From the NCBI GenBank assembly GCA_003611875.1, contig RAYY01000035.1, forward strand, positions 1 through 50,916: DNA of 50,916 nt. The letters run 5' to 3'. This document shows, one piece after another, positions 23,425-46,889 of the stretch. Both the position numbers and the translations under genes were made by a program. Numbering within the stretch: position 1 is the first letter of the stretch; each line of letters begins with the position of its first letter. Below the pieces are notes generated by a model that made no database searches, was not told the origin of the DNA, and saw only the letters and a program-made list of their open reading frames with translations. The stretch comes from a bacterium D16-56 (GTDB taxonomy: Bacteria > Bacillota > Clostridia > Lachnospirales > Lachnospiraceae).

Positions 23425-23428
23425 GGCT

Positions 23429-25775: not shown

Positions 25776-25790
25776 GGAGGGAGTGTTAGA

Positions 25791-26555: not shown

Positions 26556-26558
26556 ATA

Positions 26559-26963: not shown

Positions 26964-26996
26964 TGTGACATTTCTGTGAGAATTGGCTGTTAGACT
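26964..26996 (+). promoter_or_regulatory. Promoter with TGTGA-N6-TGTGA operator for ATPase/permease module 1
   Basis: TGTGA at 26964-26968 and again at 26975-26979 (11-bp spacing), then 11 nt and TAGACT (26991-26996) as a weak -10. Same geometry as the sites at 18320, 45035 and 46857. The poor -10 and lack of a -35 suggest activator dependence. Confidence 0.65.
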
Positions 26997-27026
26997 GACG
27001 GTATTACAGAAAGGATGGTGCTTACT

Positions 27027-27692
27027 ATGAGTATTTTACAAACAATTGACCTCAAAAAATATTACGGCGCGGAGCCAAACATCACAAAGGCACTGGATGG
27101 CGTGACACTCTCCATTGAACAGGGGGAATTTGTCGCTATCGTCGGAACATCTGGCAGCGGCAAGTCTACCCTGTTAAACATGATGGGCGGTCTGGATGTA
27201 CCGACCTTGGGCAGCGTCAAGGTAAAAGGAAAGGAACTGGCCAGACTGAATGACGAACAGCTTACCCTGTTCCGCAGACGCAACATCGGCTTTATCTTCC
27301 AGAATTACAATCTTGTCCCTGTCCTAAATGTCTACGAAAATATCGTCCTGCCCGTGGAACTGGACGGAGATACCGTAGATCGGAAATTCATGGATGAAGT
27401 GGTGCATCTTCTGGCCTTGGAGGACAAACTGAATCATATGCCAAGCAACCTGTCCGGCGGACAGCAGCAGCGCGTCGCTATTGCCCGCGCCCTCGTTTCC
27501 AAGCCCGCCATCGTCCTGGCGGATGAACCCACCGGCAATCTGGACAGCCGGACAAGCAGCGATGTGCTGGGACTTTTGAAAGTCACCAGCGACAAATTTC
27601 ATCAGACACTGGTGATGATTACCCATAACAACGAGATTGCCCAGCTTGCCGACCGCATTATCCGCATTGAGGATGGCAGGGTTTTTGAGTAA
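27027..27692 (+). CDS. BceA-like ABC ATPase, copy 1
   Basis: 221 residues. Walker A GTSGSGKS at 40-47, Q-loop [10 protein letters not shown], signature LSGGQQQR, Walker [13 protein letters not shown]: the MacB/BceA/LolD class. It partners the FtsX-type permease 16 bp downstream. ATG 27027 ([14 protein letters not shown]) is chosen by homology with the copy at 44338-45003. No kinase gene is attached; regulation probably comes from the OmpR-type system at 45-47 kb through the shared operator. Confidence 0.88.
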
Positions 27693-27707
27693 GGGGGGGT
27701 GCTGGCG

Positions 27708-30278
27708 ATGAATGACATTTTATTTGGCAACAACAACGGCGCAGTGATCAAAAAGCTGTCAGGCCGCTATTTCAAATCAAACAAAAGCAGGAATATCATT
27801 GCGGTTATCGCAATCGTTCTGACAACCATACTCTTTACCACGATCTTTACCCTTGGATCTGGCCTGATGGACACTGTTCACGACCAGAACATCCGCAAGG
27901 CCGGCGGCGAGGGGCAGGCGGTATTAAATTATATCAGCGATGAGGTTTACAATGATGTGGCAGGAAGTCCCTTGATTGACCGTATCGCCTACACAAAGGC
28001 GATTTCCTATCGGCTGAACAATCCAGGCTTGGAGCGTTGGCGAGCCGATCTGTGGTATATGGATGATACTGCTCTGGAATTTGCCCGCTACAAACCCACA
28101 ACAGGCCGCCGGCCCGAAGCGGAAAATGAGATCATCGCGGACACAAAGACATTGGACGCTCTGGGCATACCGGCACAGATCGGGGAAACCGTTTCTCTAA
28201 CCTATGAGATAAAAGGGAAGTCATACACCACCGATTTCACCCTCTGCGGTTTTTGGGAAACGGACAGCTTGAGCAACATCGGGCGGTTGATCGTATCGAA
28301 AGCCTTTGTGGATACCCATTTGGACATTCTGGCGTATACCTATCCTGTGGACAATGATTATTCTGGCGTTGTCTCCGCCTATGTGATGTTCAGCGGAACA
28401 GGAGATATAGAAGCCCGGCTTCATCAGCTGCTTTCCGAAACCGGCTATACCTGTGACACGATGGGCGGCAGCAAGGAGGACAGCAATTATGTGATTGCCC
28501 GTGTCAGTCCGGCCTATCAGAGCGGCGCATTAACGGACAATCCTGCCATGCTGATTTCCGGCCTTATTGGCGTCGCGTTGATTGTCGTAACAGGGTATTT
28601 GATTATCTACAACATTTTCCAGATTTCCATCATTCAGGATATTCAGTCCTACGGACAGCTAAAAACGCTGGGTACAACAAAGCGGCAGATTAAGCGGCTT
28701 ATCAACCGGCAGGCGCTCCGGCTGTCCCTGATTGGTATTCCCATCGGCCTGCTGGCAGGTTTCTTCATTGGCAGGGCCTTGGTGCCTTTCCTGATGAACG
28801 GAACAAGTTATACCGCAGATGCCGGGATTAAAGTAACGGTAAATCCTCTGATTTTCATTGGCTCCGCTGCTTTCGCCCTTTTTACTGTCTTTGTCAGCGT
28901 CCGCAAGCCCGCAAAGATTGCCGGTACGGTTTCGGCAATCGAGGCTATCCGCTACACGGAAAATGATACGGCAGCGTTTGGAAAGCACAGGGCCAAGGAC
29001 AAAAAATCGACCCACGGAGCAAAGCTCCACATGATGGCTTTGGCGAATCTGGGCCGTAACCGCAAACGGACGGTGCTGGTCATCGTGTCCATGACTCTGA
29101 GCCTGGTGCTGTTTAATACCGTATTCACGCTGTCCGGCGGCTTTGACATTGACAAGTATATTGCAAAATTTATGGATACAGACTTTGTGATCTCCACCGC
29201 AGATTATTTCCAATTCCGCTTTGAAACCAGCGGGAGTGAACTGTCAGAAAGCTTTGTGGATGTCGTCCGGCAGAATGAACATTTTGAGGACGGCGGCAGG
29301 CTCTATTCCTCCTGGATGCTGGAAGAACCGTTCTCAACGGAACACAATGCCTTTTCCGGCTACAACAAGGATCAAAATGGCAATCCTTTTGTAGCTCTAT
29401 ACGGCGCGGACGATTTTCTGCTGAATCACATGGAGGTCATAGAGGGGAGAATCGACCTGGAAAAGCTGAAAACGGGAAAGTATATTCTTCTGAGTGTGGA
29501 CTGCAGCGATGATGGAACGGTCGTAGAGAACCCTAATATCAGCGTGGGTGATACAGTACGGATCAATCATCTGAAAGCGGAGGAACTTTCCACCACCATT
29601 ACGGACAGCTATGACTTTATCATCCTGGCAAAAGTCCGGGTCAACGAGAACACAGCCACCACCCGCAACACGGGTGAAAGCCGGTTCTATCTCCCGACAG
29701 ATATTTTCCTGCCGCTGTGCGATAACCCCCATCTGGTTAATTTCCCTTTTGATGTGAAAGAGGGAACGGAAGCAGAAATGGCAGAGTTTTTGAACAGCTA
29801 TATCGACAGTGTGGAGCCAGGTATGGATTTTGAATCCAAGGCGACGTATACCAGCTCCTTTGACGATCTCATTTCCCTTATCATTACCATCGGAGGGGCA
29901 TTGAGTATCATCATCGGAATTATCGGCATCGCGAACTTCGTGAACTCTGTCCTGACAAGCGTTATCACCCGCAAAAAGGAGTTTGCCATGCTGCAAAGCA
30001 TTGGCATGACAGGGAAGCAGTTGAAGCGTATGCTCTCCTTTGAGGGGTTGTATTATGCTGTGGGAACAATCATCACATCGGCTATCCTTGGTGTTCTGTT
30101 TTCTGTGGTAGTTGTAAAGGGAATTTCCAGTGGAATTTGGTTCTTCACCTATCGGTTTGTCATATGGCCCATGCTGGTGATCTATCCGTTCCTTATACTT
30201 CTGACCGTGGCAATACCGGCTCTTTTATACCGGCAGATAGCCAAAGCCAGTATCATAGAGCGGCTACGGCAAAACTGA
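27708..30278 (+). CDS. FtsX-family ABC permease, copy 1
   Basis: 856 residues. It has a large extracytoplasmic domain after the first membrane segment (~60-270), a first FtsX block (~285-420), a second extracellular region (~480-720) and a second FtsX block ending ASIIERLRQN. This is the BceB/MacB-like double-FtsX layout. ATG 27708 (MNDILFGN) has GGGGGGTG upstream and matches the paralog at 41748. The module likely resists or senses antimicrobial peptides; that role is inferred from architecture and regulators. Confidence 0.85.
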   Translation: MNDILFGNNNGAVIKKLSGRYFKSNKSRNIIAVIAIVLTTILFTTIFTLGSGLMDTVHDQNIRKAGGEGQAVLNYISDEVYNDVAGSPLIDRIAYTKAISYRLNNPGLERWRADLWYMDDTALEFARYKPTTGRRPEAENEIIADTKTLDALGIPAQIGETVSLTYEIKGKSYTTDFTLCGFWETDSLSNIGRLIVSKAFVDTHLDILAYTYPVDNDYSGVVSAYVMFSGTGDIEARLHQLLSETGYTCDTMGGSKEDSNYVIARVSPAYQSGALTDNPAMLISGLIGVALIVVTGYLIIYNIFQISIIQDIQSYGQLKTLGTTKRQIKRLINRQALRLSLIGIPIGLLAGFFIGRALVPFLMNGTSYTADAGIKVTVNPLIFIGSAAFALFTVFVSVRKPAKIAGTVSAIEAIRYTENDTAAFGKHRAKDKKSTHGAKLHMMALANLGRNRKRTVLVIVSMTLSLVLFNTVFTLSGGFDIDKYIAKFMDTDFVISTADYFQFRFETSGSELSESFVDVVRQNEHFEDGGRLYSSWMLEEPFSTEHNAFSGYNKDQNGNPFVALYGADDFLLNHMEVIEGRIDLEKLKTGKYILLSVDCSDDGTVVENPNISVGDTVRINHLKAEELSTTITDSYDFIILAKVRVNENTATTRNTGESRFYLPTDIFLPLCDNPHLVNFPFDVKEGTEAEMAEFLNSYIDSVEPGMDFESKATYTSSFDDLISLIITIGGALSIIIGIIGIANFVNSVLTSVITRKKEFAMLQSIGMTGKQLKRMLSFEGLYYAVGTIITSAILGVLFSVVVVKGISSGIWFFTYRFVIWPMLVIYPFLILLTVAIPALLYRQIAKASIIERLRQN

Positions 30279-30283
30279 TTTTC

Positions 30284-30440
30284 CATGGGGTTCAAAAATG
30301 CATTCAGGCAGCCCCGGAAGGCATGGATGGTCATAGGGACATTTTTCTTATTTATCGTTCGCTTTGTGTATGGTCATTCCGGTAGACGTTTATAAAAGAA
30401 CAGGAATCCGGAGTATTGTGGAGCGGCTTCGGGATGATTA
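30284..30440 (+). pseudogene. Collapsed remnant of another FtsX-type permease
   Basis: Directly after the permease stop, one frame reads MGFKNAFRQPRKAWMVIGTF, like the N-terminus of an FtsX permease. A second frame ends RTGIRSIVERLRDD, like a permease C-terminus (compare ASIIERLRQN). The middle is missing. It looks like an internal deletion of a second permease gene. No ribosome binding site precedes it. Confidence 0.4.
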
Positions 30441-30580
30441 GACTTGCTATAGGAAAGGAGCAGCAGATGACGCTGAAAATAAGTGTTTAGAAAAGGTGCT
30501 TATGAGCATGGGAGGATGAAATCTGATTGCCCTAAACAACAAGAGAAAACATGGTGAAAAAGGTTCGATCCATAAAGAAA

Positions 30581-30611
30581 AACCAGCAAAAGAAAGTTTT
30601 TTGCTGGTTTA
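30581..30611. terminator. Terminator shared by the XRE gene and the module upstream
   Basis: AACCAGCAAAA pairs with TTTTGCTGGTT around a short loop. T-tracts follow on the minus strand (TTTCTTT), and the arm itself is T-rich on the plus strand. It lies at the convergent end of the XRE gene. Confidence 0.75.
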
Positions 30612-30968
30612 TTCTAAATTTTTAGAGTTTGGTTGAGAATGTAATAATTGTTCTGCCAAAAAGTCCAATGTATTGAGCAAAATTTTTTGGTTATGAGGAC
30701 TGCATGATTGGAATTTACCCCAAAATTTTTGCAGTTCTTCATTATCAATGGATGTTTTTGGCTGAAATAAGGTATTTGCAGGAATACCCAACCGTTCAAT
30801 AAGTGATGCTAAAGTTTCATAAGTGGCATTTTTTCGCCCTTTTTCAATATCCTGGATGGTTTTTACTGCTAAACCACACTGATCTGCAAGTTCCTGCTGA
30901 GTAAGATTGCAATCCTTTCTTGCGGCACGGATACGGTTTCCTAAATAGATTAGTTTATCTATCGGCAT
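30609..30968 (-). CDS. XRE-family transcriptional regulator
   Basis: 119 residues. An N-terminal Cro/C1 helix-turn-helix spans about 9-64 (RIRAARKDCNLTQQELADQ, then LAVKTIQDIEKGRKNATYET). The C-terminal part is short and helical. Such regulators keep ICE excision and transfer genes silent. It is transcribed away from the sigma factor and integrase genes. No clear operator was found in its upstream region. Confidence 0.85.
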   Translation of the reverse strand: MPIDKLIYLGNRIRAARKDCNLTQQELADQCGLAVKTIQDIEKGRKNATYETLASLIERLGIPANTLFQPKTSIDNEELQKFWGKFQSCSPHNQKILLNTLDFLAEQLLHSQPNSKNLE

Positions 30969-31518
30969 AGTGATTCACCCCAAATATATTCTATCGTACC
31001 GTTTATGAGATTTACATTCCCTTAATGTATGTATTAGATATATACTAATATGCCGATTTTGAAATTGAATATGTGTGGCCTTGCTGAAAAAAAAACAGCT
31101 TTTTGCAGCAAGGCCTAGTTGTATTGCTAATAGCCATCTGTGATTTGCTGTAGGAGTTTGATTCATGGATGGCTTTCACTTTTTGCAACAACAGAACAAC
31201 AGGTGCTGGCGAAAAAAATTCCGATTCCTTTGCGGCATTACTCTGAACAAAAAAATGTATTACTATACTATTTAAAAATATACAGTAGCACACAATTTTA
31301 TTCTGTTCTGCGGGATATTGTAAAAACTTATCTGCAAACAGTAAAAAAGAAAGCCTGTCCGACATTACCGGATATTGTAGTTATTCACTTATATATGAAA
31401 AACGTCAGGAAGCATGATAAGCATCTTGACGTTTTGTTTTTTGCCGACATTTTTCGACAGTATGATAGATGCCGTTCGCCACCTTTTCATCCGTACTAAG
31501 ACGGATGAAAGGAGGAAG
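30969..31518 (+). other. Long AT-rich leader region before the sigma-factor operon
   Basis: I see no gene in these 550 bases. They hold a strong stem-loop with a T-tract at 31399-31442 (AAAACGTCA pairs with TGACGTTTT) and a second perfect 10-bp hairpin at 31485-31510 (TTTCATCCGT with ACGGATGAAA), immediately before GGAGG at 31511-31515. A long untranslated leader with a terminator and a hairpin next to a ribosome binding site suggests attenuation of the downstream genes. Confidence 0.45.
31399..31442 (+). terminator. Leader terminator/attenuator candidate
   Basis: Stem AAAACGTCA (31399-31407) with TGACGTTTT (31427-31435), internal pairing AGC/GCT-like, followed by GTTTTTTG. No plus-strand gene ends here, so it may stop leader transcripts before the sigma-factor operon. 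Confidence 0.5.
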
Positions 31519-31662
31519 ATATACGCAAGAAAAAATTTTGAAAAATTTTTTCATAACTTCGATTATTTCCGCAAAACTGGTTCTCCTAGGTATGAAAGGG
31601 AGAATCAGGCACTTTTTACTACGGCTTTTATGCAGAGGGGAGGTGATCCCCTTTGGAACTGA
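31519..31662 (+). CDS. Possible leader ORF overlapping the sigma gene
   Basis: The frame reads YARKNFEKFFHNFDYF, then ERENQALFTTAF, and ends GGDPLWN with a TGA that overlaps the TTG start of the sigma factor. GGAGG at 31511-31515 precedes an ATA codon at 31519, with no ATG, GTG or TTG start near the site. If real it is about 47 residues and translationally coupled to the sigma gene. Composition looks coding; the start is doubtful. Confidence 0.3.
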   Translation: MYARKNFEKFFHNFDYFRKTGSPRYERENQALFTTAFMQRGGDPLWN

Positions 31663-32063
31663 CCAGACAGGAAAAGGATATTGTACGGAGAAAGTTCTGT
31701 AAGTATTGTATCAAAGTCATGGAAGGTGAAGCATTGTATTATCTTCGGCAGCTGGAAAAACAGCATCAGCGGGAAGTGTGCTTTTCAGATTTGACACCGG
31801 AACAGGAAAATCAGCTAAGCGCATATGATGATCTGCTGGAAATAAATTATTTTCAGGTAATGAATATGGACGTACCAGTCCGGGATGAAGATATCAGCAA
31901 TGCCTTGAAAAAACTTCCAGAACGAAAACGTATGATTATACTCATGGCTTTTTTCCTGGATATGACGGAACAGGAAATTGCTGATTATTACCATCTGGTA
32001 CAAAGTACCGTGCATTACCATAAGGCAGAATCTTTGCGGATGCTGAAAGATATTTTGGAGTAA
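31653..32063 (+). CDS. Sigma-70-like factor of Tn916-type elements
   Basis: 136 residues. The C-terminal half (LKKLPERKRMIILMAFFLD, then MTEQEIADYYHLVQSTVHYH) is a sigma region 4-type helix-turn-helix. The N-terminal half (EKDIVRRKFCKYCIKVMEGE) is typical of Tn916 Orf7-like proteins. It probably controls excision and transfer genes. The start is TTG 31653 with an excellent GGGGAGGTGAT site 6 nt upstream. A tiny ORF and the ribbon-helix-helix and integrase genes follow. Confidence 0.75.
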   Translation: MELTRQEKDIVRRKFCKYCIKVMEGEALYYLRQLEKQHQREVCFSDLTPEQENQLSAYDDLLEINYFQVMNMDVPVRDEDISNALKKLPERKRMIILMAFFLDMTEQEIADYYHLVQSTVHYHKAESLRMLKDILE

Positions 32064-32068
32064 TACAT

Positions 32069-32194
32069 ATGTGCCAGAGTAAATTTGAGCAAATGGCGAA
32101 AGATGCAAAGGCTATCTATAAAGTAGATAAGCTGGTACTTGTTAATTGTGATATTTTTGAGGAATATTTGGAAACATTCAGGATGTATGTGTGA
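32069..32194 (+). CDS. Small ORF between sigma factor and RHH genes
   Basis: 41 residues from ATG 32069: MCQSKFEQMAKDAKAIYKVD, then LVLVNCDIFEEYLETFRM. It starts 5 bp after the sigma stop; GGAG lies at the end of that gene. No family recognised; composition looks coding. Confidence 0.45.
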   Translation: MCQSKFEQMAKDAKAIYKVDKLVLVNCDIFEEYLETFRMYV

Positions 32195-32222
32195 TTTTAG
32201 TTGAGAGATTTTGCAAAAATAC

Positions 32223-32262
32223 TTGACTTTTTGTATACGAAAAGTATAATAGTATATAGAAG
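32223..32262 (+). promoter_or_regulatory. Promoter of the RHH-integrase operon with GTATA repeats
   Basis: TTGACT at 32223-32228, 16-nt spacer, TATAAT at 32245-32250. GTATA-type half-sites recur through the spacer, -10 and early transcribed region, including the dyad TATAC-GAAAA-GTATA. These are candidate operators for the ribbon-helix-helix protein encoded first. Confidence 0.6.
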
Positions 32263-32281
32263 TGATTGGAGGTGCATACAG

Positions 32282-32476
32282 ATGGCTAAGATGGGCAGGC
32301 CTAAATCTGATGCCCCGAAGCTTAATACATTAAGTGTGAGGGTAACAGACAGAGAGTTGCAGGAGCTGAGAGAATATGCGGACAGTCACGGGATGACCAT
32401 AACTCAATTATTGCATACGGGTGTTAATTTATTGCTTCAGACACCGGATGCGGAGGTGCAAAATCTCTTTCCTTGA
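32282..32476 (+). CDS. Ribbon-helix-helix (CopG/Arc-like) regulator
   Basis: 64 residues: a short basic N-terminus (MGRPKSDAPK), the ribbon strand LNTLSVRVTD, then two helices (ELQELREYADSHGM and TITQLLHTGVNLLL). This is the RHH fold of CopG/Arc repressors. ATG 32282 follows GGAGG. It overlaps the integrase start, so it may act as excisionase-like factor or as repressor of the integrase operon. Confidence 0.75.
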   Translation: MAKMGRPKSDAPKLNTLSVRVTDRELQELREYADSHGMTITQLLHTGVNLLLQTPDAEVQNLFP

Positions 32477-33729
32477 TGAAAGAAGCAGAGATGGCAAAGG
32501 CAAGGAAAGATAATAAAGGCAGAGCGTTACGGAAGGGGGAATCGCAGAGGACGGATAATACCTATGTATATACTTATACAGATCCGTTCAAAAAAAGAAG
32601 GTTTGTTTATGCCAAGGATTTACAGACACTGCGGGAGAAGGAAGCTAATCTCATTAAAAACCAGCTTGACGGATTGGACGTATATATGGCGGGTAATGCA
32701 ACCTTAAATTTTGTCTTTGACAGATATATGTCCACGAAATATGATTTGCGTAAAACAACACGTTCCAATTACATGTATATGTATAATCACTTTGTGAGGG
32801 ACGGATTTGGACAGCGTAAAATTGCGGAGATTAAGTATTCGGATGTAATGTATTTTTATTACTATTTATTGAATGAAAGAAATTTACAGGCGAATACCGT
32901 GGATACAATACATACTGTGCTGCATCCTACATTTCAGTTAGCAGTACGTGATGAGATAATCCGTAAAAATCCTACTGATGGTGTTATGGCAGAGATTAAA
33001 AGAAAAGCAGGGAAGAATAAAGGCATCAGACATGCGCTGACGGTAGAACAGCAACGGGCATTTATGTCCTATACGGCAGATAATCCGATTTTTAATCATT
33101 GGTATCCGCTTTTTACAGTGCTGTTGGGAACAGGATGCCGAATTGGAGAAGTGGTAGGGCTTCGATGGGAAGATTTAGATTATGAAAATCGCCTTATCAG
33201 CATTAATCATAGTGTGACATATTATCCGAGGGAGGGAAGCGGAACTAGAAAGTCTGAATTTGCAGTATATCTTCCAAAGACAGAGGCAGGTATTCGAAAC
33301 GTTCCCATGATGGATGCAGTTTATGAAGCATTTAAGGAAGAATATGAGGTGCAGAAAGAAAACGGCTTCAACAGCACGGTGATTGATGGTATGACAGGAT
33401 TTATTTTCTGCAATCGTTTTGGAAATATCCATAATCCCCAGACAGTCAATCGGACGATTAAGAGGATTCTGGAAAATTACAATGCCGAGGAAATAATCAA
33501 AGCAAAACGGGAAAAGAGACAGCCGGTCATTATTCCGAACTTCTCCTGCCATCATTTACGGCATACCTTTTGTACAAGGTTCTGCGAGAAAGAAACAAAT
33601 GTAAAAGTCATTCAGGCTGTCATGGGACACGCTAACATCGAAACTACGATGGATATTTATGCGGAAGTCACTGACGCAAAGAAAAAAGAAGCAATTGAAA
33701 ACTTATCACACAATCTGGATATATTTTAG
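32476..33729 (+). CDS. int: Tyrosine recombinase, Tn916-type integrase
   Basis: 417 residues. An N-terminal arm-binding domain (TYVYTYTDPFKKRRFVYAKD) and a SAM-like core-binding domain (NFVFDRYMSTKYDLRKTTRS) precede the catalytic domain. Catalytic residues: Arg in GTGCRIGEV (~222), HxLRHTF (~360), His in MGHANIETT (~386) and Tyr in MDIYAEVT (~396). It catalyses excision and integration of the ICE. The start is ATG 32476 (overlapping the RHH stop) or ATG 32491. Arm-type repeats and the element end follow immediately. Confidence 0.9.
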   Translation: MKEAEMAKARKDNKGRALRKGESQRTDNTYVYTYTDPFKKRRFVYAKDLQTLREKEANLIKNQLDGLDVYMAGNATLNFVFDRYMSTKYDLRKTTRSNYMYMYNHFVRDGFGQRKIAEIKYSDVMYFYYYLLNERNLQANTVDTIHTVLHPTFQLAVRDEIIRKNPTDGVMAEIKRKAGKNKGIRHALTVEQQRAFMSYTADNPIFNHWYPLFTVLLGTGCRIGEVVGLRWEDLDYENRLISINHSVTYYPREGSGTRKSEFAVYLPKTEAGIRNVPMMDAVYEAFKEEYEVQKENGFNSTVIDGMTGFIFCNRFGNIHNPQTVNRTIKRILENYNAEEIIKAKREKRQPVIIPNFSCHHLRHTFCTRFCEKETNVKVIQAVMGHANIETTMDIYAEVTDAKKKEAIENLSHNLDIF

Positions 33730-33756
33730 GAGAGAGTCCTGAAATTGAATGTGTGA

Positions 33757-33889
33757 ATTACAACAAAATAAGAGATTTACTACAAAGTTACTACAAATTT
33801 TGTCTGCATAATACGGAATAATACTTGATAATACATTCCGGAAATGTGGAAAATACAGGAGGATACTTGATAATGAGTAATAATACTTT
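33757..33889. repeat. Integrase-proximal element end with direct repeats
   Basis: TTACTACAAA occurs at 33777-33786 and 33788-33797, and ATACTTGATAAT at 33821-33832 and 33863-33874, with a partial copy near 33880. Short direct repeats after a Tn916-type int gene are usually integrase arm sites. The truncated ATPase gene beginning at 33888 indicates that the element boundary lies within a few tens of bases of 33890. Confidence 0.55.
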
Positions 33890-34259
33890 ATCTTCTTTGG
33901 TATTCCCGACAATCCAAATATATAATTTTATCTAAGTCATATCCAGTATCGCAAAGTCGATATCCCGTGCAATTTGAACATCGGATTTCCTTTTTTTCGC
34001 TTACAACCTTTCCATTAACCGTACTTCCTTTTAACTTATGTCTGTCACTTTCTGTTAAAATTACTCCTAAAATATCTTTTACCGCAGCAATTACCGTACT
34101 TTTTCCTGCTCCGTTCAAACCACATATTGCAGTTATTCCGTCTGAAAAAGAAATTTCTTGTAAATCGTTTAAGCCATTAAGCTCTACGCCGGATACACTA
34201 TTTAAATATTTTCTCTTATATGCTCTATCCCAATAATCTGTTTCTTTCGCCTTTCTCAT
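33888..34259 (-). pseudogene. AAA/RecF-like ATPase gene cut off by the element end
   Basis: Only about 123 residues remain. They start MRKAKETDYWDRAYKRKYLN, followed by ELNGLNDLQEISFSDGITAI and Walker A GLNGAGKST, the N-terminal pattern of SMC/RecF/OLD-like ATPases. Proteins of this type normally exceed 400 residues. The frame ends at 33888, where the ICE right end begins. Start ATG 34259 overlaps the DUF262 stop (TAATG), so both genes are coupled. The rest of the gene should lie beyond the other end of the element, outside the window. Confidence 0.65.
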
Positions 34260-35431
34260 TAAAACTTTTCTCCCCAATTATATTTTTCAACAATTTTCTC
34301 AAGTGTATAATTTAAATTTTCAAGTTCTTTAAATGTATTTATAGTATATTGTATAAGTTCTGTTTCGTTTCCCCATAACATATCTCTAAAAACTGTAATA
34401 ATAATGTCACGATATATAATTGAAAGAGCGTCTGTACTTCCCATACTAGATCTTTGGTTAAAAGTATTGAGCATTATCTCAAAAAATGAATTTCTCTTTT
34501 GCAAAGAAGAGAAAACTTCTATGTATCGTTGATCTACTTTTTTGTATTTTCCTTTTATAAAGGCTCTACAAAATTCAAAGTAACCAATAACATTTTTTAA
34601 TTCCGTATCACTCAAAGACAAATTTCTACGAATAAAAACAAACCAGCTAAAAATTGTTGCTTTATTAAATGAATATTTAAAATCATCCCAACCAATAATA
34701 CACTCCATAAATTTTTCTAAAGTTTTAGCAACTATCCTAATACACTCATCTGAAAAAGGTATTGCTTGACGATATTGAATCGAAATATCATTAGATGTTA
34801 TCTTTTTCTTTAATGTTCCCGTTTCAACTGAAAAACAAAATTTTGAGATAATTTCATCGTAAGCCAGCCTGGAATTTGAAAATCCAATTGTTTCTTTACT
34901 TGCTCCTAATACAACAAACTTATTGGACAATTCTTTAACCTGATCTCTGGTAACACCAATATATGCATTCCTTTGTTCTGCAGACGTTAACGTCGTAGGC
35001 TGATTTAAACGATAAAATAATTCTGCCGGTTCTTCTGGTTGATATTCTGTTAATCTTATAATAACAATACTATATTGCCTAAATTGCCTTTGCCATTTTT
35101 TAGGAAGATCACGATAATGCATACCATCTAGCTGAATAAGTTCAGAATTTTCAGGCAGAATTTTTCCGTCAATACAAATTATATTATCATAAAAATCTCG
35201 TATAGCTGCTAATCTTTGCTGACCATCTAATACTTCATCTATGGATTGATTATTATGTATTACATGGATAGGTGGTATCTTCCAACCTCTTAATATTGAA
35301 TCTATTAACTTTTGTTTCTTCTGAAGTGTCCAAATCTCCCCTCTTTGAAAGTCCGGTTGCAAGTCCAAATCTTCATTTTTTATTCGATTTACTATTGTTT
35401 CGATTTCTAAATCTGTAGATTCACATTTCAT
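34259..35431 (-). CDS. DUF262-family protein (GmrSD-N/ParB-like)
   Basis: 390 residues. The conserved DUF262 motifs are present: DLDLQPDFQRGEIW (~25-38), then IDEVLDGQQRLAAIRDFYD (DGQQR, ~64-82), PTTLTSAEQRNAYIG, and ELFYRLNQP. DUF262 domains share the ParB/Srx nucleotidase-like fold and occur in restriction (GmrS) and other phage-defence systems. ATG 35431 has AGAAAGGA upstream. The partner gene is an AAA-type ATPase whose start overlaps the stop. The pair looks like a two-gene defence system, now broken in the ATPase. Confidence 0.8.
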   Translation of the reverse strand: MKCESTDLEIETIVNRIKNEDLDLQPDFQRGEIWTLQKKQKLIDSILRGWKIPPIHVIHNNQSIDEVLDGQQRLAAIRDFYDNIICIDGKILPENSELIQLDGMHYRDLPKKWQRQFRQYSIVIIRLTEYQPEEPAELFYRLNQPTTLTSAEQRNAYIGVTRDQVKELSNKFVVLGASKETIGFSNSRLAYDEIISKFCFSVETGTLKKKITSNDISIQYRQAIPFSDECIRIVAKTLEKFMECIIGWDDFKYSFNKATIFSWFVFIRRNLSLSDTELKNVIGYFEFCRAFIKGKYKKVDQRYIEVFSSLQKRNSFFEIMLNTFNQRSSMGSTDALSIIYRDIIITVFRDMLWGNETELIQYTINTFKELENLNYTLEKIVEKYNWGEKF

Positions 35432-36481: not shown

Positions 36482-36559
36482 ACTACCATAAACCTCCTGA
36501 TTTTACAAGCCGGGAGCCAGTGCATTTCTGAATCCCGGCCTGTTTCCGTTATCGTTTTT

Positions 36560-36742: not shown

Positions 36743-36772
36743 AAATTCTCCTTTTCATGCAATCAGATTTTG

Positions 36773-38380: not shown

Positions 38381-38502
38381 TTGGTTGCTCCTTTGGTTCA
38401 GAATGGGTTATTTCGGCTCCTGTACGCATTTTAAGGGGGCTTTGGGGGTGTCAGTGATAAAAAGTATTGCCTTCCCTCCAACACGCTCCAAAAGTGCTTG
38501 AT

Positions 38503-38901: not shown

Positions 38902-39052
38902 ATTTCACCTTGCAGCGGCACAAAGGCGGCTGCCCTTCCCTGAAAAGGAAAACCGGCTCCGGCGCTTTCGCCCCCGTAGGCGCTGGCGGTGTGGGCGGCA
39001 TGGGTATCTTTACGGTGATGGTGATTGTCATGGTGATAAACTGCTGTGTCAT
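38882..39052 (-). CDS. Small proline-rich protein between relaxase and VLP genes
   Basis: 56 residues: MTQQFITMTITITVKIPMPP followed by a Pro/Ala-rich region and EPVFLFREGQPPLCRC. AGGAGG lies 10 nt upstream of ATG 39052. The start overlaps the relaxase stop (ATGA) and the end overlaps the VLP start, so three genes are translationally chained. No family recognised, but the tight coupling argues that it is real. Confidence 0.5.
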   Translation of the reverse strand: MTQQFITMTITITVKIPMPPTPPAPTGAKAPEPVFLFREGQPPLCRCKVKYGKQAA

Positions 39053-40491: not shown

Positions 40492-40636
40492 GGCGGTTCG
40501 CCTCCTTTCGGGTAGGGATAAATTGGCTTCGCTGGAAAGGGCAGACGCAAAGCGGGTGTCCTTTCCGGCGGAGCGTACAAGGGGTTTGGGGAGTGTAGCT
40601 CCCCATTGCGTCCAGAGGACGCCACGCCCCCGGCAG

Positions 40637-40675
40637 GGCGCACGCACCGGAACGGTGTATAAGTGCGCCGTTGGA
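40637..40675 (+). other. oriT of mobilizable element 1 (MobQ type)
   Basis: Nested inverted repeats: outer GGCGCAC (40637-40643) with GTGCGCC (40663-40669), inner CACCG-GAA-CGGTG (40645-40657), then TATAAGTGCGCC. The order hairpin, then (T)AAGTGCGCC, is that of the RSF1010/R1162 oriT nick region. It lies between the relaxase and DUF3847 genes, on the strand opposite to them. Confidence 0.7.
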
Positions 40676-40678
40676 TTT

Positions 40679-40966
40679 TTAAAGCCGCTGTAAATCCTGG
40701 CTGTCAGATTGATTTTTCAGCAGCCGCACGACTTCCGGCAGGCGGTAAATGGCGGATAAAAATGCTTTGGCTTCCTCGCCGGTCATGGCGGTAGTTGCAG
40801 GGAAGATACTTTCCAGAATTGCCCCATGCTCAATCAGGCGGCGTGTCCTGGCCTTCCGCTCTGCATCCGTTTTCCGGTTCAGGAGAATCTTCTGGCGGTT
40901 CTCCAACTGGCGGATTTCCGTCTTTACTTTTTCCTGCTGGTTTTTCAGCTTGCCTATATCTGGCAT
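40679..40966 (-). CDS. DUF3847 protein, mobilization-associated
   Basis: 95 residues: a coiled-coil N-terminal half (KLKNQQEKVKTEIRQLENRQ), then the conserved RKARTRRLIEHGAILESIFP block and FLSAIYRLPEV. DUF3847 genes sit directly upstream of MobA/MobL relaxases; the proteins may be relaxosome accessory factors. A second copy is at 49105. ATG 40966 follows AAGGAGGTG. It precedes the oriT. Confidence 0.8.
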   Translation of the reverse strand: MPDIGKLKNQQEKVKTEIRQLENRQKILLNRKTDAERKARTRRLIEHGAILESIFPATTAMTGEEAKAFLSAIYRLPEVVRLLKNQSDSQDLQRL

Positions 40967-41198
40967 TTGTAATCACCTCCTTTCGGGCGGCAAAAAAGAC
41001 AGCCGTTTCCGGTTGCCTCGTGTAATGAAAAACTTTGTTATTACTGTCTTTACATGAAGTGATTCCCTTCCCCCTTTGCTGTCTGTATTCTCTGATAGCC
41101 ACTTTTTATTTTCAATTTTGGATAAACAAGGGAGCATACACGCATCATATGATTAAGGCTTGCTGACAGTTAAAATACAAGGGAAGGGAGCTGACAGC

Positions 41199-41411
41199 AT
41201 GATTAAATATGACCGGCTCTGGTCAACCCTCAAAGAGCGGGAGATCAGCCAATACAGACTAATCAAGGATTTCGGCATAGATAAAGCACAGCTTCATTGG
41301 CTGCGGAAAAACATGGTTGTCAAAACCATAATTCTCAATAACTTGTGCCGGATTCTAAACTGCCGTATTGAGGACATCATGGAGTATGTACCAGACGAAG
41401 ATACGGACTAA
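41199..41411 (+). CDS. Small Cro/C1-type HTH regulator
   Basis: 70 residues, almost only a helix-turn-helix: LWSTLKEREISQYRLIKDFG, KAQLHWLRKNMVVKTIILNN, LCRILNCRIEDIMEYVPDED. It belongs to the YozG/Cro-like XRE group. It is divergent from the mobilization genes of element 1 and may repress them. ATG 41199 has GGGAG 7 nt upstream; the ATG at 41160 is less likely. Confidence 0.8.
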   Translation: MIKYDRLWSTLKEREISQYRLIKDFGIDKAQLHWLRKNMVVKTIILNNLCRILNCRIEDIMEYVPDEDTD

Positions 41412-41457
41412 AGGGGCAATGCAGATTTGGATTTGCGGAGCCTCCTTTTTGTTACCT

Positions 41458-41664
41458 TCACCGTTCCTGTGCCGGCGGCTTCTTATCCAGGTAGAGTTTC
41501 CCGGCCATGACAGCGGCATGGTTCCTGATTTTGATTTCTCCCCGCTTCTCACTGGCTCTGGCGTTCTTGTAGCCCTCATCAGAGAGGAAAAATCGGTATC
41601 GCTCTCCGGAGTTTCCCATAGTTAAAGATACCACACCCAATATCACAAACTCACGCTTAAACAA
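41458..41664 (-). CDS. Doubtful short ORF
   Basis: 68 codons without a ribosome binding site; the part GERYRFFLSDEGYKNARASE is plausible protein sequence. It could be a fragment of a lost gene at the junction between the mobilizable element and the transporter module. The surrounding 41412-41747 stretch contains nothing else recognisable except the terminator at its end. Confidence 0.2.
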   Translation of the reverse strand: MFKREFVILGVVSLTMGNSGERYRFFLSDEGYKNARASEKRGEIKIRNHAAVMAGKLYLDKKPPAQER

Positions 41665-41700
41665 TATTCCTTAGTCAACCACATACAATAGCAAATACAA

Positions 41701-41738
41701 AAAAGCTGGAAGCAGCCTTAATTTTGCTTCCAGCTTTT
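41701..41738 (-). terminator. Terminator of ATPase/permease module 2
   Basis: AAAAGCTGGAAGCA at 41701-41714 pairs with TGCTTCCAGCTTTT at 41725-41738. On the minus strand the stem is followed by a run of T. It lies 10 bp after the permease stop. Confidence 0.85.
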
Positions 41739-41747
41739 CTATATTAT

Positions 41748-44324
41748 TTAGTTTTGATGAAGCCGTTCTATAATACTTGTTTTTGCGATCTTTCGATATA
41801 TGATTGCCGGAATAATAATCGTTAGCGCAATCAAAAATGGATAGATAACAAACATAGGGAAAATAACAAATTTATAAGTGAAAAACCAAATGCTATTTGA
41901 AATTGCTCTTACAATGATAACCGATACCAGAGAACCAAATACGATTGACGCAACAACTGTTCCTGCAGCATAGTATAAGCCCTCAAATGACAGCATTTTC
42001 TTTAGCTGTTTTCCTGTCATACCAATACTTTGAAGCATGGCAAGTTCTTTTCTTCGTGTAATAATGCTGGTAAGAACAGAGTTTACAAAATTTGTAATTC
42101 CTATTAAGCCAATGATAATGCTTAACGCTCCCCCTATGGTAATAATCAGAGAGGTTAAATCATTAAAGGAATTGATATACGTTTGTTTAGAGTCGTAATT
42201 CATACTCGGTTCAATATCCTCAACATAGCTGCTCAAAAATTCCTCCATATCAGCTTCCATACCGTCAACTACATTGAATGGGAAGCTAACCAAATGAGGT
42301 TGCCCACAAAGAGGTAAGAAAACATCCGTCGGCATATAGAACTTTGCCAATCCGGTACTTCTTATCGTATCGGTGTTTTCATTGATTAGCACCTTTGCCA
42401 TAACCTTGCAGTCAAAGCTATTATCTATACTACTGGAAAGTCCGTTCATTTGTACATGATTGAAGTGAAGTGTATCGCCAACATGAATATTAGGGTCATC
42501 AATAATGTTTCCATTGTCATCAGCGGTCAGGGCATACAGTACATAGTTCCCGGATTTTAATGCTTCCCAATCAATCGTTCCCTCGATAACATCCATTGAG
42601 TTCAGTAAAAAATCATCTGCTCCATATAATTGAACCAAAGGATTTCCCTCAGCGTCTTTGTTATAATTTGAGGTAACTCCATTCTCGACAGAAAATGCTT
42701 CTTCCAAAGTCTTTGTAGTATATAACTCGCCACCCTCATCAAATGCCGGATTTTGCTTAACTGCTTCAATAAAAGAAGTGGAAAGGTCATTTTTGCTGTC
42801 GCTATTTCCAAACTTAAAATTGAAGTAATCCGCAGTAGAGATGATGAAATCCTTGTTTACAAATTTTTCTACATATTTTTCCACATCAAAGCCGCTTGCA
42901 AGTGTGAATACAGTGTTGAACAATACCAAACTCAAAGTCATAGAAATAATAACCAAAATTGTACGTTTCTTGTTCCGACCAAGATTTGATAATGCCATTC
43001 GATGAATTTTGGCTCCATGTATAGACTTTTTATCAGACGCCTTTTTGCCTTGAAATGCTGTTGCGTCATTTTCGGTATAGCGGATTGCTTCAATAGGCGA
43101 TACTGAACCTGCTATTCTGGCAGGCTTATTTACGCTAATAATCACTGTAACAAGTGCAAATAAAGCAGCTCCGATAAAAATAATTGGATTGGCAGTTACT
43201 TTTACTCCTGCGTCCGAAGCATAAACTGTGCCGTTCATTAAAAATGGTACTAATGCTCGTCCAACAAAGAAACCAATTAGCAAGCCGAATGGAATACCGA
43301 TAAAGGAAAGTAACATAGCCTGTTTGCTGATAAGTTTCTTTATTTGTCGTTTTGTTGTGCCTAAAGTTTTAAGCTGTCCGTAGGATTGAATATCTTGAAT
43401 GACAGAGATTTGGAAAATATTATATATAATCAAATACCCTGTTATCATAATTAAAAGTATGCCAACAATCCCCGAAATCAATAAAGCTGGATTTTCTAAA
43501 AAGTTACTGCCTTGATATGCAGGACTAACACGAGCGATCACATAATTGTCATCTGATGGACTTCCGCCCATAGTATCACAAGTATAGCCCGTTTCAGCAA
43601 GAAGCTGATGTAATTTTGATTCGATAGTTCCGTTTCCATGAAACATAACATAAGCGGCGACTACGCCGGAATAGTCATTATCTTCGGGGTAGGTGTATGT
43701 TAAAAGTTCAGAATTATTGTCAACAAAGGCTTTAGAAACAATAAGTCGTCCAATATTACTTAGGCTGTCTGTTTCCCAAAATCCGCATAGTACAAAATTC
43801 TTTGAATATGAAATCCCTTTAACTTGATAGTCCAAAGTTACGGTTGCTCCGATTTCAGCAGGAATACCAAGTGCGTCCAGCGTTTTGGTATCAGCCATAA
43901 TTTCATTCTCTGCTTCAGGACGGTGTCCCGTTGTTGGCTCATACCGTGCGAACTTCAAAGCAGTATCGTCCATAAACCACATATCAGCACGCCATTTTTC
44001 CAGTCCGGGATTATTGATATGGTAAGACACTGCCTTTGTATAGGCAATCTGTTCAATCATCTCATTGCCTTTTATATTATCAAAAACCTCATCGCTTATA
44101 TAATTCAAAACCGCTTGACCGTCGCCACCTTGTTTTCTAATATTTTGATCGTGAACGGTATCTATCAAACCAGAGCCTAATGTAAAAATGGTTGTAAAGA
44201 GTATAGTAGTTAGAGCGATTGCAATAATTGCAATGATATTTCTGCTTTTTCCTGCTTTGAAATAACGGTTGGATAATTTTTTGATAACAGGGCGATTGCT
44301 ATTTCCAAATAAAATATCATTCAT
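41748..44324 (-). CDS. FtsX-family ABC permease, copy 2
   Basis: 858 residues, the close paralog of the 27708-30278 permease: same start (MNDILFGNSNRPVIKKLSN), same double-FtsX layout and same end (TSIIERLHQN). Two extracytoplasmic domains separate the membrane blocks. By family it extrudes or releases peptides at the membrane and may feed signal to a partner kinase. AAGGGGG precedes ATG 44324. It is second in an operon with the ATPase. Codon use is more AT-rich than copy 1, so the two copies probably arrived separately. Confidence 0.88.
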   Translation of the reverse strand: MNDILFGNSNRPVIKKLSNRYFKAGKSRNIIAIIAIALTTILFTTIFTLGSGLIDTVHDQNIRKQGGDGQAVLNYISDEVFDNIKGNEMIEQIAYTKAVSYHINNPGLEKWRADMWFMDDTALKFARYEPTTGHRPEAENEIMADTKTLDALGIPAEIGATVTLDYQVKGISYSKNFVLCGFWETDSLSNIGRLIVSKAFVDNNSELLTYTYPEDNDYSGVVAAYVMFHGNGTIESKLHQLLAETGYTCDTMGGSPSDDNYVIARVSPAYQGSNFLENPALLISGIVGILLIMITGYLIIYNIFQISVIQDIQSYGQLKTLGTTKRQIKKLISKQAMLLSFIGIPFGLLIGFFVGRALVPFLMNGTVYASDAGVKVTANPIIFIGAALFALVTVIISVNKPARIAGSVSPIEAIRYTENDATAFQGKKASDKKSIHGAKIHRMALSNLGRNKKRTILVIISMTLSLVLFNTVFTLASGFDVEKYVEKFVNKDFIISTADYFNFKFGNSDSKNDLSTSFIEAVKQNPAFDEGGELYTTKTLEEAFSVENGVTSNYNKDAEGNPLVQLYGADDFLLNSMDVIEGTIDWEALKSGNYVLYALTADDNGNIIDDPNIHVGDTLHFNHVQMNGLSSSIDNSFDCKVMAKVLINENTDTIRSTGLAKFYMPTDVFLPLCGQPHLVSFPFNVVDGMEADMEEFLSSYVEDIEPSMNYDSKQTYINSFNDLTSLIITIGGALSIIIGLIGITNFVNSVLTSIITRRKELAMLQSIGMTGKQLKKMLSFEGLYYAAGTVVASIVFGSLVSVIIVRAISNSIWFFTYKFVIFPMFVIYPFLIALTIIIPAIIYRKIAKTSIIERLHQN

Positions 44325-44337
44325 AGTTCTTGCCCCC

Positions 44338-45003
44338 TTATTCTACAATTTTTCCGTCTTCAATGCGGACAATACGGTCTGCAAGCTGGGCAATCTCGCT
44401 ATTGTGGGTAATCATCACAATCGTTTGATGAAATTTCTGGCTTGTTACTTTCAACAGTCCCAATACATCGCTGCTTGTTCTACTGTCGAGGTTGCCCGTT
44501 GGTTCATCGGCTAATATAATGGCAGGCTTTGATACAAGGGCGCGAGCAATCGCTACACGCTGTTGCTGACCGCCGGATAAGTTGTTCGGCATATTTTGCA
44601 GCTTATCGCCGAGTGCCAGCATTTGCACAACTTCGTCCATGAAATTTTTATCTACTGTATCGCCATCCAATTCTACGGGCAAAACAATGTTTTCATATAC
44701 ATTGAGAACGGGAACAAGGTTATAGTTCTGGAAAATAAAACCGATATTGTGTCTGCGGAAAATCGTAAGCTGTTCATCGTTCAGCCCTGACAAATCTTTT
44801 CCTTTGACCTTTACATTACCGGAAGTGGGAACATCCAAGCCCCCCATCATATTGAGCAATGTGGATTTTCCGCTGCCGGAAGTCCCCACAATGGCAACAA
44901 ATTCTCCCTGTTCGACAGTGAGAGTTACACCATCCAGAGCTTTTGTGATATTCGGCTCGGTGCCATAGTATTTTTTCAAGTTTTTTGTTTCTAAAATGCT
45001 CAT
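44338..45003 (-). CDS. BceA-like ABC ATPase, copy 2
   Basis: 221 residues, highly similar to the copy at 27027. Walker [10 protein letters not shown]-loop [10 protein letters not shown], signature LSGGQQQR, Walker [16 protein letters not shown] 45003 ([14 protein letters not shown]) is used; the frame extends to 45048 over the promoter. It precedes its permease by 13 bp. The promoter just upstream has TATAAT and the TGTGA direct repeat. Confidence 0.9.
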
Positions 45004-45034
45004 AGAGAACACCATCCTTTCTTGTGATGGATTC

Positions 45035-45067
45035 ATTATAAAGGGCAATCCTCACAGAAATGTCACA
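45035..45067 (-). promoter_or_regulatory. Promoter with TGTGA-N6-TGTGA operator for module 2
   Basis: Minus strand: TGTGA at 45067-45063 and 45056-45052, then 11 nt and a perfect TATAAT at 45040-45035. The same geometry occurs at three other promoters in the window. The operator covers the -35 position. Confidence 0.75.
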
Positions 45068-45087
45068 GCCGACATAATAAATTGCCC

Positions 45088-45115
45088 TGAAATGTCACAA
45101 TCCTGTGACATTTCA
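45088..45115. repeat. Perfect 12-bp inverted repeat between kinase and ATPase genes
   Basis: TGAAATGTCACA at 45088-45099 and TGTGACATTTCA at 45104-45115 are perfect inverted copies with 4 bases between. The arms contain the TGTGACATTT half-site of the regulon operator in mirror orientation. It overlaps the kinase stop codon. It may be a terminator stem without T-tract, or an extra binding site. Confidence 0.6.
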
Positions 45116-46153
45116 AATATTATTTTCACTTCGGAGAAAAACCGAGAATGTAGCTCCACATCCAACTTCTGACTTAACCTTGATATAGCCGCCTTGCATG
45201 GTAACAATTTCACGGGCAAGATATAAGCCTATTCCAATGCCGTCTGTATCATGTACTGTATTTTCTCGATAAAATCGTTTGAAAATGGTTCCCTGATGCT
45301 GTTCTGGAATGCCAATACCAGTATCAGAAATATCTATCTTTATGTACATTTCCAGAGCTTCAACCCGCACATGAATCTTGCCCCTGTCCGGTGTATATTT
45401 TACAGCGTTGTCTAAGATATTGAACAGAGCTTCGCCCGTCCACTTACGGTCGTGGGAAACTGTCAGATATTCCGGGCAATCCACCTGAACACCGATTTGC
45501 TTTTTTTCAGCGTTCAACAAAATACCCCCTAAAGCAATGGCAAGAGTATCATAAATCGGCTGCTCTTTTTTCTCCAGAGAAATCACGCCTGTTTCCAGAC
45601 GGGATGTTTTAATCATAGCCTGCATGAGAAAGTCCAATTTATCAAGCTGCGTGTCGCTGGCAAGCAAAAATTCCCGCTGCTTATCCTTTGACACATTCTG
45701 TTCTAATAAGGTTGAATTTACCATTTTTAAGTTTGCTATCGGTGTCTTTACCTGATGAGAAATATCCGAAATCAATTCTTGCAAATCAGCTCGTTCACCG
45801 GCAACACTATTTTTACTTTCCTGCATGACCTCATAGAACCGCATCAGTCTGTGAGTGATTTTATAAAACAAACTTTCTTCTTCTGTTATTTGTGGTGGCT
45901 GTTGTTCTCCGTTCATCATCTCATCCAAAGTATCGCAAAGCATATCAGAAAACAAAGTCAGCTTTCGTCTGATTACTGCTACAAATGCAGCAATACAAAG
46001 TACCGTAAGGAATACAAAAACGATTCCGCAACATATCACAGACATTTTTTCAGTCAGTACATACAGAGCCGAAAGCATAATCACAGAAATGAGCAAAATA
46101 ATAGCCGCCAGTATGAAACAGGCTTTGTTGAGGGAAAGTTTTCTTGAAGTCAT
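45113..46153 (-). CDS. BceS-like intramembrane-sensing histidine kinase
   Basis: 346 residues. Two transmembrane helices (~11-33 and ~38-60) are joined by only a few residues, the layout of intramembrane-sensing kinases that take their signal from an ABC transporter. H box ISDISHQVKTPIANL with His133, N box NILDNAVKYTP, G1 DTGIGIPEQ, G2 GIGIGLYLAREIV. ATG 46153 overlaps the regulator stop. It is expected to work with the ATPase/permease encoded downstream (and perhaps with copy 1). Confidence 0.88.
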   Translation of the reverse strand: MTSRKLSLNKACFILAAIILLISVIMLSALYVLTEKMSVICCGIVFVFLTVLCIAAFVAVIRRKLTLFSDMLCDTLDEMMNGEQQPPQITEEESLFYKITHRLMRFYEVMQESKNSVAGERADLQELISDISHQVKTPIANLKMVNSTLLEQNVSKDKQREFLLASDTQLDKLDFLMQAMIKTSRLETGVISLEKKEQPIYDTLAIALGGILLNAEKKQIGVQVDCPEYLTVSHDRKWTGEALFNILDNAVKYTPDRGKIHVRVEALEMYIKIDISDTGIGIPEQHQGTIFKRFYRENTVHDTDGIGIGLYLAREIVTMQGGYIKVKSEVGCGATFSVFLRSENNI

Positions 46154-46833
46154 TTTTGCGTTCCCCCAATCCACATATAGCCCATGCCATACACTGTTTT
46201 GATGTAGGTATGTCTGTCTGCTTCAATTTTGCCGCGAATCCGGCTGATAGCTGTGGTTAGGGCGTGTTCGTCCACATAGTTTTCATCTATATCCCACAGC
46301 TTTTCAAGTAACACCTGCCGGGTCAGGACAATTTGAGGATTTTTTGTCAGAACTTTCAGCAAACGGTATTCCAACGGTGTGAAAGTGATTGCTTGTCCGG
46401 CAAGGGTAGATGTAAGTTTGGAAAAATTAACATATAAGTTTCCATCATCATAAAAACCGCCGCCGGATTGTGTGACAATACGTTTCAGCAACGCAGCAAC
46501 CTTTCTCTGGAAAACGCTCATCGGAAATGGTTTTGTCACATAATCATCCGCCCCCAGTTCAAACCCCTTCAGCATATCGCTCTCCATATCGTTTGCAGTC
46601 AGGAAAATTACAGCGGTGTCAGAGCGGCGTTCTTTCATTTCACGGCATATATCAAAGCCATTACCATCCGGCAGATTCACATCTAAAACAATTAAATCAT
46701 AGTCCTGTTTTTTAAGGAATTGCAGGGCGGATGCCTTTGACAGCGCTCCATCCACGGTATATCCGACAGCAGACAGATTGTAGCTTAATGTATGGTTTAA
46801 AAGCTGGTCATCTTCAACAACCAGTATTCGCAT
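46150..46833 (-). CDS. BceR-like OmpR-family response regulator
   Basis: 227 residues. The receiver has EDD at 7-9 and phospho-acceptor Asp51 in LIVLDVNLPDGNG; Lys in YVTKPFP. A winged-helix output domain (HALTTAISRIRGKIEADRH, VYGMGYMW) follows. ATG 46833 begins MRILVVEDD. It is first in an operon with the kinase, followed by the ATPase/permease operon. Its own promoter carries the TGTGA direct repeat, so autoregulation and control of all four such promoters is the simple model. Confidence 0.9.
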   Translation of the reverse strand: MRILVVEDDQLLNHTLSYNLSAVGYTVDGALSKASALQFLKKQDYDLIVLDVNLPDGNGFDICREMKERRSDTAVIFLTANDMESDMLKGFELGADDYVTKPFPMSVFQRKVAALLKRIVTQSGGGFYDDGNLYVNFSKLTSTLAGQAITFTPLEYRLLKVLTKNPQIVLTRQVLLEKLWDIDENYVDEHALTTAISRIRGKIEADRHTYIKTVYGMGYMWIGGTQK

Positions 46834-46856
46834 AGTATCACATCCTTTTTCTTTTT

Positions 46857-46889
46857 ATAGTATCAGCAAAATGTCACAGAAACCTCACA
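46857..46889 (-). promoter_or_regulatory. Autoregulatory promoter of the BceRS-like operon
   Basis: Minus strand: TGTGA at 46889-46885 and 46878-46874, then 11 nt and TACTAT (46862-46857) as -10. Spacing is identical to the sites at 45035, 26964 and 18320. Confidence 0.7.

Follow-up and report, generated by a model that had tools for sequence, protein, structure and literature searches.

A predicted operator-promoter block common to an ABC/FtsX transporter, its two-component regulator and exchangeable immunity-type gene cassettes in Clostridia

The window, as we call the whole stretch of 50,916 nucleotides that was analysed (contig RAYY01000035.1 of the Lachnospiraceae bacterium D16-56), carries two modules formed by an ABC ATPase and an FtsX permease gene, a response regulator (RR) and histidine kinase (HK) pair that adjoins the second of them, an arrangement kept in relatives, and a row of relatives of array genes at about 17.6-21.1 kb, referred to here as the immunity row. 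Four predicted operator-promoter blocks, designated by the position at which each begins in its reading direction, belong to these genes; loci and genomes used for comparison carry numbers preceded by L and G, respectively. The features are:

17583 to 18209, minus strand: SUKH-family gene (Pfam SUKH_6, 2.3e-09; SMI1_KNR4, 8.6e-07), downstream of the 18352 block
18320 to 18352, minus strand: predicted operator-promoter block in the immunity row, -10 TATGAT, preceding the SUKH gene
18435 to 18950, minus strand: 171-aa array gene, no family match
18959 to 19663, minus strand: 234-aa array gene, relative of cassette-array U244/U234, no family match
20801 to 21130, minus strand: U291 cassette-gene fragment
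26964 to 26996, plus strand: predicted operator-promoter block before ABC/FtsX copy 1, -10 TAGACT with extended TG
27015 to 27692, plus strand: ABC ATPase, copy 1
27699 to 30278, plus strand: FtsX permease, copy 1, 8 hydrophobic segments and two large loops
41748 to 44324, minus strand: FtsX permease, copy 2, 8 hydrophobic segments and two large loops
44338 to 45021, minus strand: ABC ATPase, copy 2
45035 to 45067, minus strand: predicted operator-promoter block before ABC/FtsX copy 2, -10 TATAAT, kept in divergent relatives
45089 to 45114, minus strand: inverted pair GAAATGTCACA-N4-TGTGACATTTC, 21 nt upstream of the 45067 block, overlapping the kinase stop codon
45113 to 46174, minus strand: histidine kinase with two hydrophobic segments, the predicted loop between them being short
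46150 to 46833, minus strand: response regulator (P0002; Pfam Response_reg and Trans_reg_C), a receiver and an OmpR/PhoB-type DNA-binding domain
46857 to 46889, minus strand: regulator-promoter version of the block, TGTGAGGTTTC-TGTGACATTTT-N5-TACTAT

An earlier note on this DNA had proposed that four promoters share the geometry TGTGA-N6-TGTGA-N11-(-10). The positions and strands given there are correct, the geometry is present at all four sites, and their number is not a matter of chance: TGTGA-N6-TGTGA has exactly four matches in the window, against an expected mean of 0.17 (sd 0.40), and none of 100 shuffles reached four. In every case the second TGTGA is followed by N11 and then by TATGAT, TAGACT, TATAAT or TACTAT, that is, two 11-bp direct half-sites, 5 bp and a -10. 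With a weight matrix of the 33-mer, the training set of which took in the first three window sites or identical copies and left the 46889 site outside, the four sites scored 60.0, 55.0, 48.9 and 17.8, and the top score in 20 first-order random windows was 2.0; a chance origin was rejected on the shuffles and these scores. The sites are not independent observations, because three of them have a longer block in common (81% identity across 64 nt between 18306-18369 and 26947-27010, and 83% between 26964-26998 and 45033-45067); the 46889 site, directly before the regulator gene, is a separate version. The bare TGTGA-N6-TGTGA was dropped as a regulon search pattern, since 20 of its 27 matches in the genome lie outside this operator-block family (the reversed pattern has 2), and the longer block, TGTGACATTTCTGTGA-S-AATTG-N5-TATGAT, is therefore the informative unit. 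Allowing up to three mismatches, it has seven copies in the genome: besides 18352, 26964 and 45067, contig 141 has one and contig 162 three. The left flank and module of the 26964 block recur in L014, L048 and L052, and the pair of flanks around 18352 was found in seven distinct contexts in relatives, one of them identical to that of the window. An open 99-aa frame crosses the 18352 site; a coding role was rejected, as the site lies between the 171-aa and SUKH genes and the same block occurs in unrelated contexts.

When one genome per species was scanned for TGTGACATTTCTGTGANNATTG, 51 stretches turned up, distributed over 48 contigs; most of the record titles name Lachnospiraceae, Oscillospiraceae and other Clostridia, hosts that the record names suggest to be of gut origin. 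No exact match to the 22-nt pattern was found in IMG/VR, on which ground viral carriage of the block was set aside. Together, the loci of the own genome and of relatives, found largely via the motif itself, provide 82 transporter- or cassette-type sites, or 64 distinct ones once identical contexts are merged. In ten ABC promoters picked for divergence, two of which are the window's own, the mean pairwise identity of the 22-nt operator was 0.932, compared with 0.785 in the -10 and 0.542 in the 5-nt spacer; it was 0.589 immediately downstream and 0.402 upstream. Third codon positions of the ATPase gene gave 0.479, and the operator exceeded them in 45 of 45 pairs. T1, A2 and T6 of the -10 are kept in 61 of the 64 distinct sites and an extended-10 TG is found in 53; no TTGACA-like -35 was seen by eye at the usual spacing, which fits a promoter that depends on an activator. 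The comparison across relatives thus bears out the proposal of OmpR/PhoB-type direct repeats, two units of 11 nt, adjoining the -10. The same note had regarded TAGACT at copy 1 as a weak -10 that predicts the strictest dependence on activation. This is not supported: TAGACT occurs at 8 of the 64 sites, each time preceded by the extended-10 TG, and copy 1 is without the upstream inverted pair present at 45067.

A protein search with the regulator in 392 genomes of the order found it, at E up to 1e-60, in 20; relatives with at least 70% identity form clade A, and those with 47-55% clade B. A clade-A regulator is present in 6 of the 20 genomes and the other 14 hold clade B only; the clade-A regulator of G417 has an internal stop. 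The search of related genomes that had been suggested for the site was run on the same 392 genomes with a 32-nt pattern (22 fixed bases, up to two mismatches). Eight genomes had a match, with mismatch-free sites in exactly the six clade-A genomes and sites with two mismatches in G051, in its own clade-B transporter promoter, and in G306; since site and regulator lie mostly in one operon, this co-occurrence is partly the co-inheritance of one module. In an earlier sample the site was found in 4 of 195 relatives, all four with a clade-A regulator. The regulator promoters behave in a corresponding manner. An A-type direct repeat (up to three mismatches) is present in 17 of 20 distinct clade-A regulator promoters, the clade-A remnant L015 being set aside, and in 1 of 19 of clade B, whereas the B-type repeat TGTAACANTTC-NCGGACATTTG is present in 10 of the 19 and in none of the 20. 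Nine of the 17 have the strict TGTGA-N6-TGTGA; the three clade-A promoters without a repeat are those of L037, L033 and L044, the last with a transporter-type block further upstream of the regulator. Of 21 clade-B loci only L079 has the strict pattern, a single time and not on the strand of its regulator. A constant geometry with bases that vary with the regulator clade is how an operator should behave. A recognition-helix residue that would separate the clades was also sought; an 85% rule gave a single position, not tied to DNA contact, and this candidate was dropped, while a HAL/HTL trend noticed by eye was left out of account.

The comparison and the co-occurrence favour a single regulon, as had been predicted, joining both ABC/FtsX modules, the regulator gene and the site in the immunity row, and make this reading, with predicted binding of the regulator, well supported. 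Two of the clade-A regulators in the genome are intact (100 and 78% identity), the second on contig 162, and a third is a remnant, so trans control of the immunity row and of copy 1 by either intact regulator is possible. That copy 1 has no attached two-component genes stands for the clade's RR/HK pair, and for this contig only. In a relative, an immunity row and a copy-1-type module lie behind such a pair (L028 and L039, adjacent on one contig), and in the window copy 1 itself has beside it another RR/HK pair, which accompanies a lantibiotic-protection-type transporter. The latter region (22054-26858) comprises a three-gene ABC2 transporter similar to LanFEG and a divergent RR/HK pair, the kinase of which has a loop of some 120 residues; it lies directly upstream of ABC/FtsX copy 1, in the same order as in L048 and L052, and the TIGR03740 match of the transporter's ATPase falls short of the curated cut-off.

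Upstream of the 45067 block, alone among the four window sites, lies the inverted pair, a feature that the earlier note did not mention and which is one half-site in both directions. Allowing three mismatches, it was found at 21 of 61 sites with enough upstream sequence: at 17 of 35 of the transporter type and at 4 of 26 others. Its distance from the direct repeat is 19-22 nt, or 31 nt, about one helical turn longer, in L032, L040, L012, L075 and L095. The pair of clade B differs in a matching way and reads GAAATGTCCGA-N4-TGTAACATTTC, with a distance of 30-31 nt where this was measured, in four loci; L083 has a weaker form, and none was found in L076. As the only window site with the pair, 45067 is expected to be the strongest target of the four. 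The operator consensus of BceR-type regulators is TnACA-N4-TGTnA. The pair, TCACA-N4-TGTGA, resembles the inverted operators reported for such regulators in PMC3128592 (the PsdR form) and PMC10858260 (the GraR form), and Bce-type regulators are described in the former as binding inverted, not direct, repeats. An inverted-repeat operator before the transporter genes is thus present at 45089-45114 and absent at 26964.

Besides transporters, the block has as neighbours SUKH genes, an NTF2-fold immunity gene (in the L037 array), isochorismatase-like, GNAT and CAAX protease genes, and several families without a match in Pfam. The SUKH and Imm-NTF2 genes stand in co-oriented arrays with repeated blocks; several other cassette genes have no recognisable immunity identity. 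An ORF with a good ribosome site begins within 150 nt downstream at 46 of 56 testable sites, comprising 33 of 33 of the transporter type and 13 of 23 others; leftward, such an ORF was found at 1 of 56. L061 was set apart from the transporter type, its right flank continuing into another gene. No such ORF lies near L111 or L116; these (L116 being G000 contig 2:4219-4250) are weaker or ORF-less operator copies, possibly remnants of lost modules. PADLOC returned no match for nine array or immunity-row proteins, and structure models of two cassette families were poor (mean pLDDT 38.3 and 49.9).

Several other genes of the window and of the own genome deserve mention. An OmdA-domain protein (bacteriocin-protection, YdeI/OmpD-associated; E 8.7e-11) is encoded at the edge of the immunity row (21226-21834), and a GmrSD_N-domain protein (Pfam 2.9e-19; PADLOC NsnA match, 5.3e-34), a candidate defence gene, at 34259-35431. 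A Tn916-type tyrosine integrase (32473-33729) and a MobA/MobL relaxase (49566-50648) suggest that the window is probably mobile DNA. On contig 141 (L001:2002-3031) a clade-A regulator without part of its DNA-binding domain is followed by a kinase cut inside HisKA, the remnant ending at the block, so the cassette genes behind would be controllable in trans only; a serine-recombinase gene lies about 4 kb from this site. On contig 162 (L002:1-2257) the three-block array is immediately preceded by genes for RepA_N replication and a relaxase, which point to a plasmid or conjugative element; no dedicated tyrosine recombinase was seen among the L002 genes from RR to FtsX.

A further property of the block, also absent from the earlier note, is its behaviour as a junction. 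Across the 64 contexts, 16 types of left flank and 15 of right flank are combined in 28 ways. In 113 pairs with a common left and a different right type, homology ends a median of 18 nt past the core, and in 465 pairs with a common right and a different left type, 13 nt before it; the medians are 12 and 14 for 1205 pairs with neither type in common and 62 and 398 (limit 400) for 233 with both, and, since long homology within a type is built into the type rule, these medians serve to illustrate the seam and are no independent test of it. The array of contig 162 has the order RR-HK-GNAT-U244-block-SUKH-block-U291-block-ABC-FtsX. Compared with it, L026 is without 2046 bp, from the first to the third block (flanks 99.6 and 99.4%; 61-bp overlap), L060 has the same difference (flanks 92.1 and 95.6%), and L058 is without 949 bp, from the second to the third block (flanks 95.4 and 95.3%; 107-bp overlap); all three differences, whether losses or gains, are joined inside the repeat. 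Two or more blocks occur in 14 of the 51 stretches. PMC9484751 cites 40-70 nt for efficient recombination, so a special enzyme would not be needed, although one may take part. Judged from these comparisons, the block is a seam for gene cassettes, copies of which precede SUKH, acetyltransferase, isochorismatase and other genes in relatives, and the site in the immunity row is part of such an array. In L028 and then L039 the genes are co-directed from RR-HK through the row to the copy-1-type transporter; read in this light, row and copy 1 of the window look like one array rearranged around the lantibiotic-protection-type module and parted from its regulator.

We propose that the block serves the two-component system at 45113-46833, and the clade to which it belongs, as activation site and core promoter. 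Once phosphorylated, the regulator would bind the two 11-bp direct half-sites, most likely as a tandem dimer, and recruit RNA polymerase to a -10, usually extended, that is without a good -35; at many ABC/FtsX promoters the upstream inverted pair would offer it another place to bind. A single signal, which is probably an envelope-active peptide, would then switch on the transporter, the regulator and the immunity-type genes that carry the block. Because some 60-107 bp are similar from copy to copy, recombination among the copies would remove, exchange or add cassettes, each gene keeping its switch. That one two-component system drives the transporter, itself and exchangeable immunity-type cassettes, the block being both activation promoter and exchange joint, we consider likely, although binding and activation by the regulator, the nature of the signal, the enzyme behind the recombination and a protective function of the cassette genes are inferred.

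How far this extends to the cassette copies is where the explanations part. The 18352 block is far from an ATG and has no inverted pair, which counts against our proposal, and one may suppose that 45067, 26964 and 46889 form the true regulon and that 18352 and many cassette copies are recombination scars with little regulatory effect. The -10 at 18352 ends 125 nt before the likely ATG (18194) of the SUKH gene, compared with a median of 31, the inverted pair is found in 0 of 7 R05 contexts, and the share of non-transporter sites with a good ORF start, given above, points the same way. We nevertheless hold such a division to be rather unlikely, as cassette copies lie 30-64 nt before an ATG in L042, L070, L037, L002, L020, L061 and L041 and the SUKH arrangement is kept, with an intact core, in seven distinct contexts. 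A more radical version, in which the block does no more than serve a mobile cassette system for recombination or attachment and looks like a promoter incidentally, would fit the strong seam behaviour, with its shuffling of flanks and repeat-to-repeat losses. It is improbable in view of the operator half kept in divergent modules without cassettes, of the key bases kept in the -10, of regulator promoters that carry the same half-sites and not the rest of the block, and of clade-B modules that keep the geometry with other bases. Finally, TGTGA is the CRP half-site, which might suggest a regulator of the CRP/FNR type in place of the two-component regulator; we give this hardly any credence, the CRP palindrome being TGTGA-N6-TCACA and the promoter-proximal sites here being direct repeats, the presence of which tracks the clade-A regulator and the bases of which vary with its clade.

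On the proposal that the block is both activation promoter and exchange joint, it seems that in some gut-type bacteria copies of a single promoter stand before a transporter operon, its regulator and a variable complement of immunity-type genes. A stronger form, in which an activator-dependent promoter is the exchange joint of an open-ended, stress-inducible immunity array and a recombined gene joins the regulon at once, is conceivable, with the balance in our view tipping slightly against it. Immunity-gene arrays are known, and the control of newly acquired genes is little explored in the literature found. If the operator is the recombination seam, acquisition and regulation would be one step and regulon membership would evolve by cassette exchange at the switch; the sensing of envelope-active compounds would be tied to protection against delivered protein toxins, and the motif would offer a search handle for undescribed immunity genes in Clostridia.

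No use of a shared operator as a cassette seam was found in the literature searched, which covered few subscription papers. Integrons have exchangeable gene cassettes joined at a short shared site, a likeness to the present arrays; here no integrase is found among the L002 array genes tested, and each cassette brings its own promoter.

Likeness to BceRSAB-type systems, as described in PMC3023708, PMC10858260 and PMC3128592, lies in the joining of a response regulator, a kinase and an ABC/FtsX transporter in one module. The kinase matches BceS at 1.8e-10 and its hydropathy windows, 19-37 and 50-68, are about 12 residues apart by a crude hydropathy method (a Bce-type loop has about 3-11). The description of the transporter as BceAB-like is right as to module make-up and not as to the permease: BceB has exactly 10 segments with one large loop between 7 and 8 (PMC3023708), whereas both copies here have 8 predicted segments and two large loops by the same crude method, and among solved relatives 5xu1 and YtrF match best and PsdB reaches no more than E 0.12. 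The transporter is thus not a strict BceAB. Two further differences are that the direct repeat here touches the -10 and that the promoter block also heads immunity-type cassettes.

PHO box and other OmpR/PhoB operators (PMC4415409) likewise have two 11-nt direct repeat units, head to tail, with other bases and another regulator, and the use of the block as a cassette seam sets the present case apart. The T7SS immunity clusters esaG/tipC (PMC9484751) gain and lose genes via homology blocks of about 55-100 nt; those blocks lie in and just after paralogous genes, whereas here unrelated genes have a common, predicted operator-promoter, and "promoter" and "regulat" have 0 occurrences in the main text of that paper. 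The cassette arrays also resemble the rAID clusters of Bacteroidales, with short co-oriented genes, including SUKH domains, and conserved intergenic motifs (PMC12247911); the available part of that account describes a tyrosine recombinase and does not mention two-component control, and in the Clostridia studied here, another host group, the intergenic motif would itself be the operator-promoter.
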